This document shows positions 21,278 to 35,052 of a stretch of DNA of 64,000 bases, in pieces. Within the stretch, counting starts at the first letter, position 1, and every line of letters starts with the position of its first letter. This stretch comes from Phycisphaerales bacterium. GTDB lineage: Bacteria > Planctomycetota > Phycisphaerae > Phycisphaerales > UBA1924. The notes under the pieces are model-generated. The model was not told the DNA's origin. It saw only the letters and a list, made by a program, of their open reading frames with translations, and made no database searches. Position numbers and translations under genes: made by a program. The stretch is taken from positions 62,001 through 126,000 of the forward strand of contig JADLCM010000019.1 of the NCBI GenBank assembly GCA_020847175.1, written 5' to 3'.

Positions 21278-24200
21278 ATGGGACGAAGGCCAGCCAAGAT
21301 CGACGAAGGCCCAAAGCTGTTCGCCCGCGAAGAGGCAGCCTTTCAGCGCCGCTTTCGCCGCCAGCGCGCGATCTTCATCCCGCGGTTTGTCCGCGAGGCG
21401 GCGGCCGATCGCTCGCTCGCCGGTCCGGCCCAGGAATCCGCATACCAGATCCTGCTCCGGTGGGCCGATCTGGAGTCTTCGGGCCATCTGCAACGCGAAA
21501 AAGAGACATCGATCGACACCCAGTTCCTCGAACAGGTGTTCGGAGATGCCCTCGGGTACCTCGTCAAGACGCGCAGCCCCGCCGACTTTCAACTGGACCA
21601 CAAGCACGCCGTGCCGGGCGTCGGCACCGCCGACGGCGCGCTCGGCGCCTTTCCAGGCGCCAGGTCGCCCTCGGTCATCATTGAGCTCAAAGATGCGCTG
21701 ACCGACCTCGATCGCGATCGATCGAACGGACGCACCGCGGTCCAGCAGTGCTGGGACTATCTCAGCGCCCTGCCCGACTGCGACTGGGGAATCGTCTCCA
21801 ACTTCTCGACCATCCGTCTCTACCATCGAAGCAGGTCAAGCCTCAACTACGAGGAGTTCTCACTCCAGGAACTCCGCGACCGCGCCCGCTTCAGCGAGTT
21901 CTACGCGATCTTCGAACGCGGCGGTCTTGTCCCCTCCGCGCTCGGGCAGATCCCGCGTGCGCTCGCGCTCCTTCAGAAGACCGCGCGCCGCCAGAAAGAC
22001 GTGGGCGACGATCTCTACAAGAACTACCAGTGGCGCCGCCTCGAACTCATCGAGCACCTGCACACCGAAGAAGGCAAGAGCCTCGACGAAGCAATCCGCA
22101 TCGCGCAGAAAATCCTCGACCGCATCATCTTCATCGCCTTCTGTGAAGACCGCGGGCTCCTGCCGGAAAACTCACTCTCCGATACCAAGACAGACGTCCG
22201 CCGATACAGCCGCGCCCGCAACCCCGCGTGGGAGAACTTTCTCGACCTCTTCACCGCCGTCGACAAAGGAGCAAAGGGCAAGAAGGAGATCACCGCGTTC
22301 AACGGCGGCCTGTTCGCCGATGACCCCGCGATCAACGCCCTGGACCTCGAAGACGAGAAGTGGACCAACGCGTTCGCCGGGTTCGGCAACTACGACTTCT
22401 CCGAAGAAGTCAACGTCGAAGTGCTCGGGCACCTCTTCGAGCGATCAATTACCGAGCTCGAGAAACTCCGTGTCGGCGGGCTCCTCGCCCTCAAGGGCGC
22501 GGTCGAGGGCGCGAACGGGACCAACCACAGCGCCGCCAGGTCTGCCAAGGGCAAAGCCAAGTCCACGCGCGCACGCAACGCGGGCGACGACGCCCCCCTC
22601 TCCAAGATGCCCAAGAGCGCCCAGCGCAAGCGATTCGGCATCTACTACACGCCACCGGCCTTCACAGGCCTCATCGTTGAACGCACTGTCGACGCCCTCG
22701 TGCGAGATCGCTTCGCGGCACTCGCCAAGAAGCACAAGGTCGATCCCGAATCCCGCGAGCCCCAAGACCCCAGACGCGTCCGCGCGTACTGGACCGCGTG
22801 CCTTGAATGCCTCAAGGCCATCACCATCTGCGACCCGGCCTGCGGCTCAGGCGCGTTCCTCATCCGCGCCTATGACGCCATGGACGCCCACTACAAGGCC
22901 GTCGTCCACGGTCTGGGTGGCGCGGCGGTCCCGCCCGCCGACCTCGCCGCGGTCGAAGACTCCATCCCCGACCTCATCCTCTCGAAAAACCTCTACGGCG
23001 TGGACCTCTCGCGCGAGGGCGTCGAGATCACGCAACTTGCCCTCTGGATCCGCTCGGCCCGCGTTGGCAGGACGCTGATGGACCTCTCCAAGCACATCGT
23101 CCACGGCAACTCGCTCGTGCCCGATCCGGCGGTGGATCGACACGCCATGAACTGGGTCGAGGCCTTCCCCCAGGTGTTCGGCACAGGCCAAGCCGGTGGC
23201 TTCGATTGCGTGATCGGCAACCCGCCGTGGGAGCGGGTCAAGGTGCAGGATCGCGAGTTCTTTTCGCTCACCGACCCTGTAACCGCGCAGGCCGTCAGTG
23301 CCGCCGACCGCAAGCAGCGCATCGCCGCGATGCCCACCGCCGCGCCGGAGTTGCATGAGTCCTATCTCGCTGCGCGCGACCGGGCACAGAGGATGCTCGA
23401 CTATGCGCGCGTACCAGCTTCGCAGGGTGGCCGCTATCCGCTCACGGGCAAAGGTGATGTCAACCTCTACATGCTCTTTGCCGAGTTGGCTCGCGCAATC
23501 GTCGCTCCGGCTGGCATGGTGGGCGTGCTCGTCCCCTCGGGCATTGCAACCGACGACACCACCAAGGAGTTCTTCAACGACCTCATGGACCGCAAGGCCT
23601 TGGTGAGCCTCTACGACTTCGAGAACCGCAACAAGGTCTTCGAGGACGTGGACGGGCGGTTCAAGTTCTCCGCGCTTGTCTTCCACGGCAGCGAGGGGCA
23701 GACCGAGCAAGCCGACTTCGTCTTCTTCGCCCACGGCGTGGACGAAGTGGCGGACACGAACACGCAGCGCCACATCCCCCTCACCGCGGCGGACATGAAA
23801 CTCCTCAACCCCAACACCAAGACCTGCCCTATCTTCCGCACCCGGCGGGACGCGAACCTCACCCGCGCCATCTACAAGCGCGTCCCGATCATGATCGACG
23901 AGAACCGCAAGCAGGGCGGCAACCCGTGGGGGATCAGGTTCGTCAGGATGTTGGACCAAACCAACGACGCCGAACATTTCGCCGAGGCCAAGGTCTGGAA
24001 GAAAAAGGGGTACACGCTCCAGGGCAACGTCTACACCAAGAACAGGAAGCGGGCCTTGCCCCTCTACGAAGCCAAGATGGTGCAGGCCTTCGACCATCGG
24101 GCCGCGAGCGTGGTGGTGGACGACGAGAACTGGGTGCGCCAGGGCCAGAAGGCCGAAACCTCCTTCGTGCAGCACGCCAACCCCGAGTTCGCCGTCCTGC

Positions 24201-24883
24201 CGAGGTGGTGGGTGGCGGAGGGCGTGGTCGAGATAGTGATGGCGGAACAACCTGGCAACAAGCCGTGGTTCATGGGCTTCAAGGACATCACCAGCCCAAC
24301 CAACGAAAGGACGATGATCTCGGCGTTCGTCCCCCGGTCAGCCGTCACCAACAAGTTCGTGCTGATGCTTACCGATACAGAGCCGCGCCGCCACGCCTGC
24401 TTGCTCGGCAACTTCAACTCCTTCGTCTTCGACTACGTGACGCGGCAGAAAATTGGAGCCATCACCCTCAACTTCTTCATTGTCGAGCAACTCCCCACGC
24501 TCCCTCCCGAGACCTACGCCGACAAGTGCCCGTGGTCGAAGCGCGAAACTCTCGAACACTGGATCAGCGAGCGCGTCCTGAAACTCTCCTGCACCGCCGA
24601 AGACATGCTGCCCCTCGCCCGCGCCTGCGACTTCAAGGGGAGCCGGGGCGATGGCGTTCACATCTGGAAGGAACAGGAGCGCGCCGAACTCCGCGCCGAA
24701 CTCGACGCCGCCTTCTTCATTCTTTACGGCATCGAACGGGACGATGTCGAGTACATCCTTGGCACCTTCAGCGGCACGGGCCTGCGACCCGAATCTGAAC
24801 AGATCGATGGCCGTCGCTGGGAGCCCGGCAAGGCGGCGGACCTCATTCTGGAGTGCTATGACCGCTTGTCGGAGCCACAGTGA
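21278..24883 (+). CDS. Type IIG restriction-modification enzyme (Eco57I-like)
   Basis: A single 1201-residue polypeptide joins nuclease, methylase and specificity parts. N-terminal PD-(D/E)xK residues are plausible: Asp119 and Glu136-x-Lys138 in VIIELKD. A helical connector holds FCEDRGLLPEN and GIYYTPP (about 450), typical of these enzymes. The N6-adenine methylase domain has DPACGSGAF (from residue 519) and NPPW (648-651). The C-terminal 450 residues should read DNA, and the target cannot be predicted. TATAAC ends five bases before the ATG, a leaderless-type start. No partner gene is needed. It has more A+T-ending codons than its neighbours, consistent with transfer. Confidence 0.9.
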   Translation: MGRRPAKIDEGPKLFAREEAAFQRRFRRQRAIFIPRFVREAAADRSLAGPAQESAYQILLRWADLESSGHLQREKETSIDTQFLEQVFGDALGYLVKTRSPADFQLDHKHAVPGVGTADGALGAFPGARSPSVIIELKDALTDLDRDRSNGRTAVQQCWDYLSALPDCDWGIVSNFSTIRLYHRSRSSLNYEEFSLQELRDRARFSEFYAIFERGGLVPSALGQIPRALALLQKTARRQKDVGDDLYKNYQWRRLELIEHLHTEEGKSLDEAIRIAQKILDRIIFIAFCEDRGLLPENSLSDTKTDVRRYSRARNPAWENFLDLFTAVDKGAKGKKEITAFNGGLFADDPAINALDLEDEKWTNAFAGFGNYDFSEEVNVEVLGHLFERSITELEKLRVGGLLALKGAVEGANGTNHSAARSAKGKAKSTRARNAGDDAPLSKMPKSAQRKRFGIYYTPPAFTGLIVERTVDALVRDRFAALAKKHKVDPESREPQDPRRVRAYWTACLECLKAITICDPACGSGAFLIRAYDAMDAHYKAVVHGLGGAAVPPADLAAVEDSIPDLILSKNLYGVDLSREGVEITQLALWIRSARVGRTLMDLSKHIVHGNSLVPDPAVDRHAMNWVEAFPQVFGTGQAGGFDCVIGNPPWERVKVQDREFFSLTDPVTAQAVSAADRKQRIAAMPTAAPELHESYLAARDRAQRMLDYARVPASQGGRYPLTGKGDVNLYMLFAELARAIVAPAGMVGVLVPSGIATDDTTKEFFNDLMDRKALVSLYDFENRNKVFEDVDGRFKFSALVFHGSEGQTEQADFVFFAHGVDEVADTNTQRHIPLTAADMKLLNPNTKTCPIFRTRRDANLTRAIYKRVPIMIDENRKQGGNPWGIRFVRMLDQTNDAEHFAEAKVWKKKGYTLQGNVYTKNRKRALPLYEAKMVQAFDHRAASVVVDDENWVRQGQKAETSFVQHANPEFAVLPRWWVAEGVVEIVMAEQPGNKPWFMGFKDITSPTNERTMISAFVPRSAVTNKFVLMLTDTEPRRHACLLGNFNSFVFDYVTRQKIGAITLNFFIVEQLPTLPPETYADKCPWSKRETLEHWISERVLKLSCTAEDMLPLARACDFKGSRGDGVHIWKEQERAELRAELDAAFFILYGIERDDVEYILGTFSGTGLRPESEQIDGRRWEPGKAADLILECYDRLSEPQ

Positions 24884-26853: not shown

Positions 26854-26880
26854 GTCGCCGGGTGCGGCCCGGGCGTGAGC

Positions 26881-27347
26881 GGTGAGTGGCGGATGGCGAG
26901 TGGCGTTCAACCTCGGCGCTCCTGAAGCGAACGGATCATCCCTCGCATCATGCGGCCGAGTCGCTCTGAGAGCGCCATCAGGCCTTCGATCTCACTCGCA
27001 TCCGCAAGGCCGATGCGTTCACAGACGATCAGGTGCGTCTCAAGCTCCTTCAGGCTGCCCTGCGCGATCTGGAGAAACCGAACAAACTCGCCCGTGGATT
27101 CCCGGCCGTGGCCTTCCGCGATGTTGGCCGGAACTGATCCGGCCGCACGACGAATCTGCGACGTGAGCGTGAACAACTCTTCCTTCGGAAACCCGCTCGT
27201 GATCTCATAGCACGCGACCGTGAGATCGACGCCGATCTTCCAGATCTCAAGGTCGCGATATGAGCGTATGTCACCCACGCACATCCCCTTGAGCAGGACA
27301 CACTGTTCCAGCGCCGTCTCCCCCCCACTCGCCATTCGCCACTCGCC
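26881..27347 (-). mobile_element. S23-type four-helix gene flanked by an inverted repeat
   Basis: A 23-bp imperfect inverted repeat bounds the element. The left end (26881-26903) is made of GAGTGGCG/GATGGCG units, and the right end (27325-27347) is its reverse complement with two mismatches (CCACTCGCC, ATTCG, CCACTCGCC). The only gene inside is the four-helix-bundle protein. The element lies between the 5' end of the deacetylase gene and the 3' end of the formyltransferase gene, and its edges run into both. No transposase is present, so movement would need help in trans. Confidence 0.6.
26907..27284 (-). CDS. Four-helix-bundle protein, S23/23S-rRNA intervening-sequence family
   Basis: A 125-residue helical protein of the family first seen in intervening sequences of 23S rRNA and related to the Avd protein of diversity-generating retroelements. 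SYRDLEIWKIGVDLTVACYE is the diagnostic start, followed by SGFPKEELFTLTSQIRRAAG and SVPANIAEGHGR, then SLKELETHLIVCERIGL. The start chosen (ATG 27284) has an AAGGGG site. It is enclosed by inverted repeats and interrupts a glycan cluster, which supports a mobile origin. The biochemical role of stand-alone members is not known. No reverse transcriptase or variable repeat is nearby. Confidence 0.88.
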   Translation of the reverse strand: MCVGDIRSYRDLEIWKIGVDLTVACYEITSGFPKEELFTLTSQIRRAAGSVPANIAEGHGRESTGEFVRFLQIAQGSLKELETHLIVCERIGLADASEIEGLMALSERLGRMMRGMIRSLQERRG

Positions 27348-27352
27348 ACTCC

Positions 27353-28381
27353 CTAAAAAAACCTATGCCCCGCCCGCCGAAACCGCTTCACATCCGCCTT
27401 CGTCGGCATCGAGAAATGGCTCTGCTCCGCCTCGGGGTTGGGCATGAGGTCGCCGAGGTCGCCCTCTTCGACCTTCCGCACGCACTCCAGGATCGCCTCC
27501 GCCGCGAGGTCCTTGCCCCGCGCCATGATGTCCTCCAGCGTGTCGTGCGCATGAATGCCGTACGACCTCTGCACCACGATCGGCCCGTTGTCCAGCTTTC
27601 GGTCCACGTAATGCACGCTCACCCCGCCGCGCTTCTCGTCGTTGGCCAGCGTCCAGAAACTCGGCATGAGTCCCCGGTACTTGGGCAGCAGCGCCCCGTG
27701 GCAGTTGACGATCCCGTAGGGTGTCTGCTGGCGCAACGCTTTTTTGTACAACTGCGTGCCGCTGATCGACACGATGAACTCGACGCCCCGCTCGCGCAGC
27801 ATCGCGCGGAATGACTCGCTGTTCACATCCGCCGATTCATCGACCGTCACGCCGTACTTCTTCGCCACCGCCGCCACCGTGTGGCACACCCGCGTCGAGC
27901 CCAGCACCCCGTTGACGATCTTCCCCTGCAGTTTCTTCACGATGAACCGCCGGAACTTCCACTGGAAGTACCACGGCCCGTACATCTTCAGCAGGTCCAT
28001 CGCCGTCTGGAACACCGTGCGCTTGCCCTGCGCCACGCTCTGGATGTTCACGCCCACCGTGCTCCCCGCGTGCTCGCGCAGGTACTTGTCCAGCACCTTG
28101 GGCAGCAGGAACGGGTCGTTCTGGATGAACACGTACTTCTTCAGTGGGCGGGCCTTTCCGTCCGCTCCCGCCTCACGCGCCGTCTCCCACGGGCGCTCCG
28201 TCTCTCCGGGGGCTGGGTCGCGTTCGGGGAGCCGCACCGGCACGCTCGCTCTCGTCGGCGCGCTCGCGCGTTCCGTGGGGCCGCTCCCGGCCTCCCGGCT
28301 CGCCGAGCCCTGCCTCCCCGCCTCCTCCGGCGTCGATCCTCTCGCCGAAGTCTCCGCAACCTGTGCCGTCCCTGCGCTCAT
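27353..28381 (-). CDS. Formyltransferase-domain protein with a disordered N-terminal extension
   Basis: A member of the methionyl-tRNA/GAR formyltransferase fold, 342 residues long. The core begins about residue 80 (KKYVFIQNDPFLLP). The signature is NCHGALLPKYRG (Asn, His) with the Asp in RKLDNGPIVVQ, completing the formyl-transfer triad. In glycan clusters such enzymes usually formylate amino sugars. The first 80 residues are Arg/Ser/Glu/Pro-rich and may be non-coding or a linker, but the ATG overlaps the stop of the GT4 gene (ATGA). The C-terminus Phe-Phe-stop is encoded by a T-run at the edge of the S23 element, so the original end may have been altered. Confidence 0.8.
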   Translation of the reverse strand: MSAGTAQVAETSARGSTPEEAGRQGSASREAGSGPTERASAPTRASVPVRLPERDPAPGETERPWETAREAGADGKARPLKKYVFIQNDPFLLPKVLDKYLREHAGSTVGVNIQSVAQGKRTVFQTAMDLLKMYGPWYFQWKFRRFIVKKLQGKIVNGVLGSTRVCHTVAAVAKKYGVTVDESADVNSESFRAMLRERGVEFIVSISGTQLYKKALRQQTPYGIVNCHGALLPKYRGLMPSFWTLANDEKRGGVSVHYVDRKLDNGPIVVQRSYGIHAHDTLEDIMARGKDLAAEAILECVRKVEEGDLGDLMPNPEAEQSHFSMPTKADVKRFRRAGHRFF

Positions 28382-29970: not shown

Positions 29971-30420
29971 ATGACGCAAACAAGCAAGCATCGCGCCCCG
30001 GCCACCCCCCGCGCCGCCGCCCGTGCTCGTCGCCCCGTCGATGGCCTCCTCGACCCCGCCTTCTTCAAGGCGCTCGCCGACCCCACCCGCCTCCTGCTCT
30101 TCGCCTGTCTCGCCAAGTGTGCACGTCCTTGCTCGGTCAGCGACGTCGCCGCGTGCTGCAACGTGGACTTCTCCGTCGTCTCAAGGCACCTCGGCACCCT
30201 CGCCGCAGCCGGGCTCCTCACTCCGGAGAAGCGCGGCAAGCACATGTTCTACAGCGTCCGCTTCAACGACCTCTCCCTCCGCCTCCGCGCCCTCGCCGAC
30301 GCCATCGACCAGTGCGGCCCCGGATGTTGCCCCCCGGCCGCGTGCGGGTGCGGCGCTCCCGAGTCAGCCCCCGACCGTCCGCCCGAACCGGCGGCTCGCC
30401 GCCCCCGCGCGCACGCATGA
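29971..30420 (+). CDS. arsR: ArsR-family metalloid-responsive repressor
   Basis: A winged-helix repressor of 149 residues. The fold starts FFKALADPTRLLLFACLAKC, and the recognition region is CNVDFSVVSRHLGTLAAAGLL followed by the wing KRGKHMFYSV. Candidate metalloid-binding cysteines are Cys-Ala-Arg-Pro-Cys near residue 50, the Cys-Cys pair, and a Cys-rich C-terminal tail (QCGPGCCPPAACGCG). It is transcribed from a promoter that puts the start codon at the 5' end of the mRNA, so it is probably leaderless. arsM follows after 65 bp. The product likely represses the pair until arsenite is bound. Confidence 0.88.
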   Translation: MTQTSKHRAPATPRAAARARRPVDGLLDPAFFKALADPTRLLLFACLAKCARPCSVSDVAACCNVDFSVVSRHLGTLAAAGLLTPEKRGKHMFYSVRFNDLSLRLRALADAIDQCGPGCCPPAACGCGAPESAPDRPPEPAARRPRAHA

Positions 30421-30485
30421 CCCGTTCCACTCCGTCGCTCCGTGGCGCCGGGATCCCATACCACCCCCGAAACTCGGAGATTCCC

Positions 30486-31439
30486 ATGGCCGACAATGTC
30501 TCTCGTTCCTGCTGCGACCCCTCCTGCTGCGCCGAGAAGCCCGCCGCCGGGCCTGCCTCTTCGCCCGAGGCGATGGACGCACTCGACACCATCCGGGCCG
30601 GATACGCCGCGATCGCTCGCGCCGGTTCGTGGTCCGCCGCCCACCAGGGCGCGGGCTGTTGCGCGGGTGCCCCCAAGGCCGCGTCGGGCGGCGGATGCTG
30701 CGGTCCCGCCGACCTCGCCCCCGGCGACCTCGCCCGCGCCATCGGCTACGGAGCCTCCGAACTCGCCTCGCTCCCGGAGGGCGCCAACCTCGGGCTCTCC
30801 TGCGGCAACCCCTCCGCCCTCGCAGCGCTCCGGCCCGGCGAGGTTGTCCTCGACCTCGGCTCCGGCGCAGGCTTTGACTGCTTCATCGCCGGCCCCAAGG
30901 TGGGGGCCGGGGGGCGCGTGATCGGCGTCGACATGACCCCGGACATGCTCACCAAGGCCCGCCGGAATCTCACTCGGTACCACGACCTCACGGGTCTCAC
31001 CAACGTCGAGTTCCGCCTCGGCGAAATCGAGCATCTTCCCGTGCCGGATGCCTCCGTCGATGTGGTCATCTCCAACTGTGTGCTCAACCTCTCGCTCGAC
31101 AAGCCCCAGGTATGGCGCGAGATCGCCCGGGTGCTTCGCTCCGGCGGGCGGGTGGCCATCTCCGATCTCGCCCTCCGCAGGCCCCTTCCCCCGGGCCTGC
31201 GCGCAGACCTGGAAGCCCTCGTCGGGTGCGTCGCCGGGGCCGTGCTGTTCGATGAGACCCGCGTCATGGCCCAGGCCGCGGGCCTTCGCGATATCGAGCT
31301 CATTCCTCGCGATGCCTACGTCGATGCGATGACCGATTGGCAGGATCCGCTCTACCAACGCATCGTCGCCGCGCTTCCCGCCGGTGAGAAACCCAGCGAC
31401 ACCATCACCAGCCTCGAAGTTCGCGCCCGGAAGCCATGA
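30486..31439 (+). CDS. arsM: Arsenite S-adenosylmethionine methyltransferase
   Basis: This enzyme methylates As(III) to volatile or excretable forms. The SAM motif is VVLDLGSGAGFDCF, preceded by the diagnostic GYGASELASLPEGANLGLSC with the first conserved Cys. The other two catalytic cysteines are in ISNCVLNLS and LVGCVAGAV. An N-terminal Cys-rich segment (SCCDPSCCAEK, GAGCCAG, GGGCCGP) precedes the fold, as in many ArsM proteins, and may capture arsenite. The start (ATG 30486) has a CGGAGA site, unlike leaderless arsR. It is 317 residues long. It forms a two-gene operon with arsR and converges on the DEAD-box gene. Confidence 0.93.
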   Translation: MADNVSRSCCDPSCCAEKPAAGPASSPEAMDALDTIRAGYAAIARAGSWSAAHQGAGCCAGAPKAASGGGCCGPADLAPGDLARAIGYGASELASLPEGANLGLSCGNPSALAALRPGEVVLDLGSGAGFDCFIAGPKVGAGGRVIGVDMTPDMLTKARRNLTRYHDLTGLTNVEFRLGEIEHLPVPDASVDVVISNCVLNLSLDKPQVWREIARVLRSGGRVAISDLALRRPLPPGLRADLEALVGCVAGAVLFDETRVMAQAAGLRDIELIPRDAYVDAMTDWQDPLYQRIVAALPAGEKPSDTITSLEVRARKP

Positions 31440-33261: not shown

Positions 33262-33651
33262 ATGGACGAAGCCAAGGCAAGGGTTCTGGCCAAACTCGTA
33301 GGCGGCGAGGAATGGCGGATCGGCGAACGCGAATTTGTTGTCGTGCTCCGTCGCCCGGACGGCTCCATCGTCGCCCTTTCCGATGATGTCGTTGCCGAGT
33401 ACCCCGGCGACGGGGCGTTCGATGCGGGCACGCCCTCAACGAACATCCTCCTCCGCGATGACCCCACGGAGTATTGGGTTATTCAGGATGAAGAGGGCGG
33501 GGTCATGCTCGCGGACCCGGACCACGGGCGCGGGTGGCCCAGCGAAGAGGAAGCCGAGCACGAAGCGCGGGGCATCCAATCCCGTACCGGCTTGAAGACG
33601 TGGGCACGTCGTCAGCGCTTGGAAGACACGCTCCCGGCCCGGTCGCCTTGA
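33262..33651 (+). CDS. Hypothetical acidic protein next to the dcm-vsr island
   Basis: A 129-residue protein with a mixed alpha/beta look: EEWRIGEREFVVVLRRPDGS, then DDPTEYWVIQDEEGGVMLAD, and a charged C-terminus. I do not recognise a family. TACACT ends six bases before the ATG, so translation is probably leaderless. Its last 40 bases overlap the 3' end of vsr on the other strand, an unusual convergent overlap. The position at the edge of a restriction-modification island makes an accessory role possible, but nothing in the sequence shows one. Confidence 0.65.
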   Translation: MDEAKARVLAKLVGGEEWRIGEREFVVVLRRPDGSIVALSDDVVAEYPGDGAFDAGTPSTNILLRDDPTEYWVIQDEEGGVMLADPDHGRGWPSEEEAEHEARGIQSRTGLKTWARRQRLEDTLPARSP

Positions 33652-34049
33652 AGAAAGCGGGCGAGCCGCGCCCGGAGCCGCTCCACATTCCGCGTCTGAC
33701 ATTCCCACACCACGAGCACCCGCCACCCCTCGCGCCGGAGCGCCCGCACGGCGCGACGGTCCCGTTCCACGTTCCGCGTCAACTTCGGGAGCCAATACTC
33801 CCGATTCGATTTCGGGAATCGCACACCTCGCGGGCATCGGTGTTGATGCCAGTAGCACCCGTGGACGAACACCACGGTTCTAAGCCGAGGAAAGGTTAGG
33901 TCAGGCGAGCCGGGCAAGTCCCGGCGCTGGAGACGGAAGCGGAAGCCGAGCGCGTGGGCGACGGAACGGACAATCCGCTCGGGCGTGGTGTCGTGCGAGC
34001 GGACGCCCCGCATCGCCCGGCTTCGTGTTCCGGGCGAGAGGTTGTCCAT
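33612..34049 (-). CDS. vsr: Very short patch repair endonuclease
   Basis: This enzyme nicks 5' of T in T:G mismatches that arise when 5-methylcytosine deaminates, protecting sites methylated by Dcm enzymes. The 145-residue sequence has TRSRAMRGVRSHDTTPE at the start, the catalytic PD-(D/E)xK-like block LPGSPDLTFP with Asp, the zinc/structural VHGCYWHQHRC, and RVLVVWECQ at the end. The start chosen lies one base after the stop of the preceding gene, so translation is coupled. Presence of Vsr implies that the neighbouring methylase makes 5-methylcytosine. Confidence 0.93.
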   Translation of the reverse strand: MDNLSPGTRSRAMRGVRSHDTTPERIVRSVAHALGFRFRLQRRDLPGSPDLTFPRLRTVVFVHGCYWHQHRCPRGVRFPKSNREYWLPKLTRNVERDRRAVRALRREGWRVLVVWECQTRNVERLRARLARFLQGDRAGSVSSKR

Positions 34050-34050
34050 C

Positions 34051-35052
34051 TCATTCCTCCTCTCCCTCATTTTCGTCGCCCTCCGCGAGTTCAAGCGCAG
34101 GGGGTACGTCGATTAGGAGACACATATCGGTTTCCACTTCCTCAACCCGTCGGTTGTATTCTGCCACGAGTTGCGCCAACTCATCGCGCAAGCGATCGCG
34201 CTGAAACCCGGACAACTCCGCCAAGTTTTGCCCGACGAATGACTCAATCGGCTCCACCATAATCTTGTCGAGGATGCCTTGTTGCCGAGCCAACTCTCGC
34301 GCGGCGGCCAATCGACCGTCTGGCACCAGGAGTACTGCGGATGTACCTGCCTTCAAGTTGGACTCACACCTAGCGCAGACTGCCGGGGTGGGGCTGATCG
34401 TCACGTGGAAGGCGGCATCACCAATTTGGAAGTCGCCCACGCGCCCAGACTGTTCATCGGCGGCGCTCCCCGCGAAATTTGTGATGGTCGCATTCGGGAA
34501 TCGCAGCGCCAACTTGGCTCCCACAAGATGTTGCGCAACGTAGTCGGCGCGACCCTTCTTCTCGGCTACCGCGAGTATGCCAGCAATGAAAGTGTGGACC
34601 GGACTCGTGGGGTTGAACTCCACCTTGATCCGCTCTTGTTGGAAGTAATCGTTGACACGTTCGACAAGGTACGCTTGCATCGCGTGTAGGCTTGCCGTTC
34701 GCTCCGCTTCCGCGACGCGATCAAGTCGCGCACCGGCCACCGCGTCTAGCAATGAGGCGACGATCGCGTGATTACCGCGATTCGTCCGCCCGCCTTCCTT
34801 CAGGAATGTTCGCGACTCGCCATGCGCCGCGAGCACCTTTTGAATCGCCCCCTTGCCCATCCCCGCAATCTGCCCCTTCTTCTTCGTGACGTGGGCATTC
34901 GGGTCAAGGTCAAAGCGAGCCTTTAGAACTTCCAGCACCACGATGGCCGCCGCGACGGCGCCACGTGGCGGAAGTGGTTTGTATCGCCGATCAGCTTCGA
35001 GGCTTTCAAACCACTCGGCAATCACTTTGCGAGATTCGGTCTCAACGCTCAT
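34051..35052 (-). CDS. Putative restriction endonuclease partner of the cytosine methylase
   Basis: A 333-residue protein between dcm and vsr, overlapping dcm by ATGA. The position is that of the cognate restriction enzyme, and the sequence may belong to the DUF4928 group that I recall next to cytosine methylases, though I cannot confirm this. Features seen: an N-terminal helical region, GQIAGMGKGAIQKVLAAHG, then IKVEFNPTSPVHTFIAGIL, then VGDFQIGDAAFHVTISPTP. A catalytic Asp/Glu-x-Lys set cannot be fixed with confidence. A C-terminal coiled segment and an acidic tail follow. Nuclease activity is inference from context. Confidence 0.65.
   Translation of the reverse strand: MSVETESRKVIAEWFESLEADRRYKPLPPRGAVAAAIVVLEVLKARFDLDPNAHVTKKKGQIAGMGKGAIQKVLAAHGESRTFLKEGGRTNRGNHAIVASLLDAVAGARLDRVAEAERTASLHAMQAYLVERVNDYFQQERIKVEFNPTSPVHTFIAGILAVAEKKGRADYVAQHLVGAKLALRFPNATITNFAGSAADEQSGRVGDFQIGDAAFHVTISPTPAVCARCESNLKAGTSAVLLVPDGRLAAARELARQQGILDKIMVEPIESFVGQNLAELSGFQRDRLRDELAQLVAEYNRRVEEVETDMCLLIDVPPALELAEGDENEGEEE

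Follow-up and report, generated by a model that had tools for sequence, protein, structure and literature searches.

Genes of the S23 family (PF05635) are found in many bacteria. In Coxiella burnetii one such open reading frame lies in an intervening sequence (IVS) of the 23S rRNA, an insert of 428-444 nt with terminal inverted repeats; ahead of the frame, its RNase III-cut 5′ end carries the heptamer GACAGAT three times in tandem (PMC4990558). More than 25 years after rRNA IVSs were discovered, their function and origin were still described as unclear (PMC4990558). Dispersed short palindromic doublets between genes, together with a cognate gene that carries the same repeats and to which the repeat type is tied, are known as the REPIN/RAYT system (PMC3116915). 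Arrays of a G-rich heptamer occur in Xanthomonas and Nostoc; the GGGAATC arrays of Xanthomonas, often present as inverted pairs, have been treated as G-quadruplex repeats; the surrounding regions were reported to be of raised stability, and no link to mobile elements was seen (PMC4692102). Finally, homology between PF05635 and Avd, the accessory protein of diversity-generating retroelements (DGRs), has been remarked on (PMC10053308).

Here, we describe an S23 element between two genes of a glycan cluster in a stretch of 64,000 nucleotides (the window) from a Phycisphaerales bacterium, and compare it with its relatives. It shares with the Coxiella IVS the protein family, a similar size, and terminal inverted repeats and tandem heptamers around the S23 frame. 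The IVS is situated inside an rRNA, whereas the window element stands between protein-coding genes of an operon, and no Rfam rRNA match was found at its locus (L001). Furthermore, two features of the S23 elements reported below, arrays that serve as common ends and derivatives without the gene, are not described in the cited sections of PMC4990558. The likeness to REPINs and RAYTs is seen in relatives, where palindromes and a bracketed gene both occur; in the window's own genome, the search recovered the bracketed gene only. In contrast to RAYTs, which are tyrosine (HUH) transposases, the gene of the S23 elements encodes a PF05635 four-helix bundle, and their arms are tandem arrays of 7- or 8-nt units. 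The arrays of Xanthomonas and Nostoc are likewise built of 7-nt units and often paired in inverted orientation, but were not tied to mobile elements (PMC4692102). Avd has the same fold as the modelled window protein; unlike a DGR, however, the element carries the S23 frame alone, with no reverse transcriptase or template/variable repeat within it, and unlike a DNA transposon or insertion sequence it lacks a transposase domain. A search limited to the open-access literature found no paper linking S23 genes to heptamer arrays.

The S23 element of the window

The element spans about 450 bp and consists of a left array of about four heptamers, one S23 gene and a right, inverted array. A repeat search of the window identified the arms at 27325-27351 and 26877-26903, each 27 nt long and 89% complementary to one another. 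The 5′ arm (27325-27351; sense strand GAGTGGCGAGTGGCGAATGGCGAGTGG) follows directly after the formyltransferase stop codon and comprises inverted repeat I1 and direct repeat D1, whose spacing of 14 equals two units; the 3′ arm (26877-26903) is the inverted array and is translated as part of the deacetylase, whose N-terminus it encodes. The 23-bp inverted repeat with two mismatches that the preliminary description placed around the gene is present within these arms. Its sequence is no unique 23-mer but part of a tandem array of the 7-nt units GGCGAGT and GGCGAAT. The arm score at the locus is 19.5, compared with a maximum of 14 when 700 control positions were scored in identical geometry. That description had named a lack of further genomic copies as refuting its proposal, and we found no second copy of the window repeat in the genome (G000); two further PF05635 matches there are without clear arms.

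The S23 gene is listed as a frame of 142 amino acids on the reverse strand (26907-27335), and its identification as an S23-type four-helix gene is borne out by profile and structure alike. The frame matches PF05635 with an E-value of 9.1e-36 and 122.8 bits against a curated cut-off of 33.8, and the structure model (pLDDT 85) has the fold of 2gsc and 2rld (TM to target 0.86-0.91). The next-nearest fold is that of DGR Avd (4dwl, 8ub7; Foldseek probability 1.00). The listed ATG at 27335 falls within the array. Since aligned homologues begin at about residues 18-22, and residues 1-22 of the listed frame are modelled with pLDDT below 50, translation probably begins at the ATG at 27284. Among solved structures the closest is Xcc0516 of Xanthomonas campestris, which, to go by the title of a reference in PMC10053308, forms a pentamer of four-helix bundles.

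The profile search of the element frame returned PF05635 alone, with no transposase domain and no Y1 (HUH) transposase, and no established nuclease or transposase was found among the nearest folds (2gsc, 2rld and DGR Avd). We know of no catalytic domain in PF05635. At the sensitivity used, S23 was not found in phages. In the eleven close pairs tested at sites other than the window's, S23 is under purifying selection, with dN/dS ranging from 0.045 to 0.31 and below 0.1 in eight, which is consistent with a working protein. The value of 0.42 for the pair formed by the window genome and G001 at the window site suggests that constraint has been relaxed in G001.

Some other window genes may be mentioned: a 1201-residue Eco57I/MmeI-like restriction-modification methylase (21278-24880, forward strand; profile match) that adjoins the glycan cluster and, judged by eye, a putative ArsR regulator followed by a putative arsenite methyltransferase (29971-31439, forward strand), and a putative Vsr-type very-short-patch repair endonuclease (33612-34094, reverse strand).

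History of the formyltransferase-deacetylase junction

Upstream of the element lies a formyltransferase gene (PF00551; 27353-28381, reverse strand; profile match), and downstream a polysaccharide deacetylase gene (PF01522/PF11959; 25924-26910, reverse strand) whose TTG start overlaps the S23 stop codon (TTGA). This gene pair is conserved among relatives, and comparison of filled and empty sites confirms that an S23 gene within an inverted-repeat unit was inserted between the two. Six genomes are without the element (G003, G012, G007, G015, G016 and G018), their aligned gene ends lying 15-63 nt apart; the gap is wider in G008 and G004, where S23 is also absent. S23 with arms is present in four genomes, namely the window genome and G001, which belong to one genus, and G017 and G019, which represent two more genera of the same family. 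At the junction, the arms match each other within each site and differ between sites, with a period of 8 in G017 and of 7 elsewhere; those of G001 are degenerate. Where G007 has the junction without S23, a short gene-less palindrome of AGGCACC-type heptamers is found (L128).

Both neighbours had been thought to bear marks of the insertion. The Phe-Phe-stop end of the formyltransferase was attributed to the element, but the element-free loci L118 and L122 also end in GHRFF*, and this end is therefore native. The deacetylase does begin with TTG in the window, as had been observed; its filled relatives, however, offer ATG or GTG at that place, the likely starts in the four genomes being TTG, TTG, ATG and GTG, each overlapping or just ahead of the S23 stop. 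In all four (G000, G001, G017 and G019) the deacetylase reading frame runs through the right arm.

The S23 copies at this junction are monophyletic in the S23 tree (support 83/91), and filled and empty sites are intermingled in the tree of the flanking genes, so that the simplest history would be a single insertion followed by losses. As the insertion is shared by four genomes from three genera of the family, it is old, and the window copy is an old, vertically kept member of its element class.

Matched inverted arrays around S23 genes

S23 genes were taken from relatives and from GTDB genomes. The sample was drawn by similarity to the window protein and is therefore weighted towards the alphaproteobacterial nuoC-nuoD site. 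Inverted repeats in the flanks exceeded the 99th percentile of 700 control positions at 94 of 107 S23 loci, and the best self-match at these 94 had a lag of 7 in 88 cases and of 8 in six. When arrays were sought independently in each flank, periodic arrays were found on both sides of 109 of 129 S23 elements, with equal periods throughout (7 and 7 in 103, 8 and 8 in six, mixed in none). Across the 109, the similarity of left to right arm is 0.755 in inverted and 0.025 in direct orientation, and the left arm is purine-rich in 104. S23 genes within matching arrays occur in four phyla, and the unit varies among elements (GCGAATA, GGCGAGT, AGGCACG, TTCCGAAG, GGGTTAG and GGGATTC). In two genomes with GGGAATC units (G461 and G334), S23 lies at accB-accC between arrays of the GGGATTC type; a third (G304) carries a single array but lacks S23. 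The suggestion that array-less S23 loci might be located in rRNA was discarded, as Rfam returned one tRNA there and nothing else.

Array type and S23 protein vary together. Across 100 elements, array distance correlates with S23 distance (r 0.709, 0/2000 permutations), and at the nuoC-nuoD site it does so given NuoD distance (partial Mantel r 0.377, 0/2000 permutations), the correlation between array and NuoD being 0.002. Different S23 lineages are found at the same junctions: two are present at nuoC-nuoD in Methylobacterium, one with GGCGAAT and the other with AGCGAAT arrays. By these distances, array type follows the S23 sequence and not the host gene. With arrays found independently, only 27% of left arms are matched best of all by the right arm of the same element, because units are common to related elements; an earlier comparison of own arms with those of the nearest relative was biased because the arms had been picked to match each other.

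Position within operons

The downstream gene is in sense with S23 in 90 of 91 elements at classified junctions, and the remaining one has nuoD upstream, also in sense; orientation was settled for these 91 and for annotated plasmid loci, with 42 elements of other sites left out. The junctions are nuoC-nuoD, groES-groEL, accB-accC, a dcd-like gene and ribonucleotide reductase, formyltransferase-deacetylase, and an alpha-E gene, where names other than those at the window junction were assigned by eye from translations. Annotated cyanobacterial plasmid loci agree, with co-directional upstream genes in 12 of 12 and downstream genes in 11 of 12. The left arm often adjoins or overlaps the stop codon of the upstream gene. 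In a type I-D CRISPR-Cas operon on plasmid pANA02 of Anabaena sp. 90, an S23 gene separates cas6 from cas4 (L327).

Signs of movement on plasmids

In plasmids of Nostocales, a single S23 subfamily is found at three unrelated junctions (L314, L315 and L329), and the main homology of these non-allelic copies is confined to arm-S23-arm, a segment of 416-419 nt. At one junction (junction A), filled sites (L314/L319) can be set against empty ones (L316, L317 and L325) with flanks 97-99% identical: the empty sequence AAAAA-GTAAT-TAACAAAT becomes AAAAA-GTAAT-(element)-GTAAT-TAACAAAT, with a 5-bp duplication of GTAAT. This is the only plasmid junction with a clean target duplication, the others being ambiguous and too diverged to define one. 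In one strain, two homologous plasmid regions differ in their S23 elements, which occupy neighbouring junctions; the junction filled in one region is empty in the other. At L315 the element cuts short the upstream gene and provides its stop codon. Derivatives consisting of both arms 170-185 nt apart with no S23 between them are found on other plasmids. In the multi-copy genomes examined, the S23 copies are diverged and no burst of near-identical copies was seen. The view that arm-S23-arm is a moving unit is well supported.

Gene-less palindromes

Convergent pairs of the same array without S23 are present in S23-bearing genomes, with loops of about 10-150 nt and occasionally longer; the reversed control pattern gave no match in those 16 genomes. 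In Methylobacterium, S23 occurs in 11 of 111 genomes, as one copy each at nuoC-nuoD. Arrays elsewhere, mostly gene-less palindromes, are found in all 11 of these compared with 20 of the 100 S23-negative genomes (Fisher 1.8e-7, uncorrected for phylogeny), at a mean of 9.1 against 0.5 array matches per genome. Each genome's palindromes are similar to its own S23 arms (4/720 permutations), and palindromes recur at the same few junctions, such as nusG-rplK and mdh-sucC (names by eye).

Two apparent cases of gain did not hold. The nearest empty relative of G158 at nusG-rplK is G100, but the outgroups are filled there, and a loss is the better reading of the empty site in G100. A pair of equal palindromes in G114 lies in a 3.6-kb duplication of 99.8% identity that includes a heptamer palindrome at nusG-rplK (L210/L211), and was rejected as a case of transposition. 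Palindromes in G158 (L241) and G066 (L214) have one arm grown to about 13-15 heptamers and the other short, which suggests that only one of the arms has slipped. Species free of the heptamer palindrome often have a different, unrelated hairpin at nusG-rplK (L300, L302, L303 and others).

A candidate mechanism and its alternatives

We consider it probable, at roughly 0.6, that these are REPIN/RAYT-like mobile elements in which the S23 protein stands in place of a transposase and acts on the arrays. The architecture, the co-variation of array and protein, the sense location in operons, the enrichment of gene-less derivatives with S23, the non-allelic copies bounded by arms and the empty sites, all read from sequence, point in this direction; that S23 itself would bind the arrays and drive movement, and with what chemistry, we infer. 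The element would insert in sense, beside stop codons, between co-transcribed genes, and S23 would then be expressed together with the operon, in the window via the stop/start overlap. The protein would bind the arrays, probably in hairpin or single-stranded form, and would thereby cause any segment with matching arrays at its two ends to be copied or inserted; the cutting enzyme may be the host's. Gene-less palindromes would be non-autonomous derivatives, as REPINs are with RAYTs. The window copy would have inserted in the common ancestor of the three genera and now be inherited vertically. The mobile-element idea of the preliminary description gains support from the wider family, with its inverted arrays of matching type, its derivatives without the gene, its non-allelic copies and its empty sites, but at the window itself the insertion is old and no second copy was found in the genome. 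Many of the sites are of old date and vertically maintained, and purifying selection acts on S23, so that a host role for the protein is also possible.

An unlikely alternative, though the best of those weighed, is that the element is an intervening sequence of mRNA: the arms would pair in the transcript and RNase III would cut the stem between cistrons, and the element would persist because this split is as harmless as that in 23S rRNA, with movement incidental. The sense position within operons, a predicted stem closed by the arms over the whole element (z -3.56) and the heptamers at the RNase III-cut 5′ end of the terminal repeat in Coxiella, as given in the cited sections of PMC4990558, fit this account. 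RNA pairing that kept the arms alike should, however, have left an excess of G.U over A.C mismatches; the counts of 130 and 107 show no clear asymmetry, and selection on the arms at the RNA level was rejected. Nor would it explain the co-variation of array and protein or the gene-less copies linked to S23.

Slightly less probable again is that the palindromes are regulatory hairpins of the host, REP- or attenuator-like and favoured after stop codons, which spread by ordinary recombination or replication slippage, with S23 as a passenger that got into one of them. Their return to the same few junctions, the non-heptamer hairpins of other species at nusG-rplK, and the regional stability and absent mobile-element association reported for GGGAATC arrays (PMC4692102) are all in keeping with such a role, but it is S23 and not the host that predicts array type, S23 lies within matching arrays across four phyla, and non-allelic copies lose homology at the arms. 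A recent insertion-sequence-like event peculiar to the window genome, as first proposed from the inverted repeats and the altered deacetylase start, is most improbable, being contradicted by the shared site in G001, G017 and G019 and the monophyly of the S23 copies there, with no other copy in the genome and no transposase domain found.

Implications

The interest of the result lies in the element class more than in the window copy. The intervening sequences of rRNA seem to be this same element, placed within rRNA. More tentatively, and with rather less than even odds in our estimate, there may be a large mobile class across phyla, moved by a non-catalytic-looking protein of the S23/Avd type that recognises inverted tandem 7- or 8-nt arrays, perhaps using nucleic-acid hairpins and a host or borrowed enzyme, and uniting rRNA IVSs, the heptamer repeats of cyanobacteria and Xanthomonas, and operon-borne S23 genes. 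If the reading as a REPIN/RAYT-like element is true, a role would be suggested for PF05635/S23, a family long listed as of unknown function, and one type of element would account for S23 genes, for the intervening sequences of rRNA and for the heptamer repeats that abound in cyanobacteria and Xanthomonas. It would also pair a protein with a DNA site in a concrete way that can be tested, and would add a REPIN-like system whose protein has no known transposase domain and is related in fold to a DGR accessory protein.
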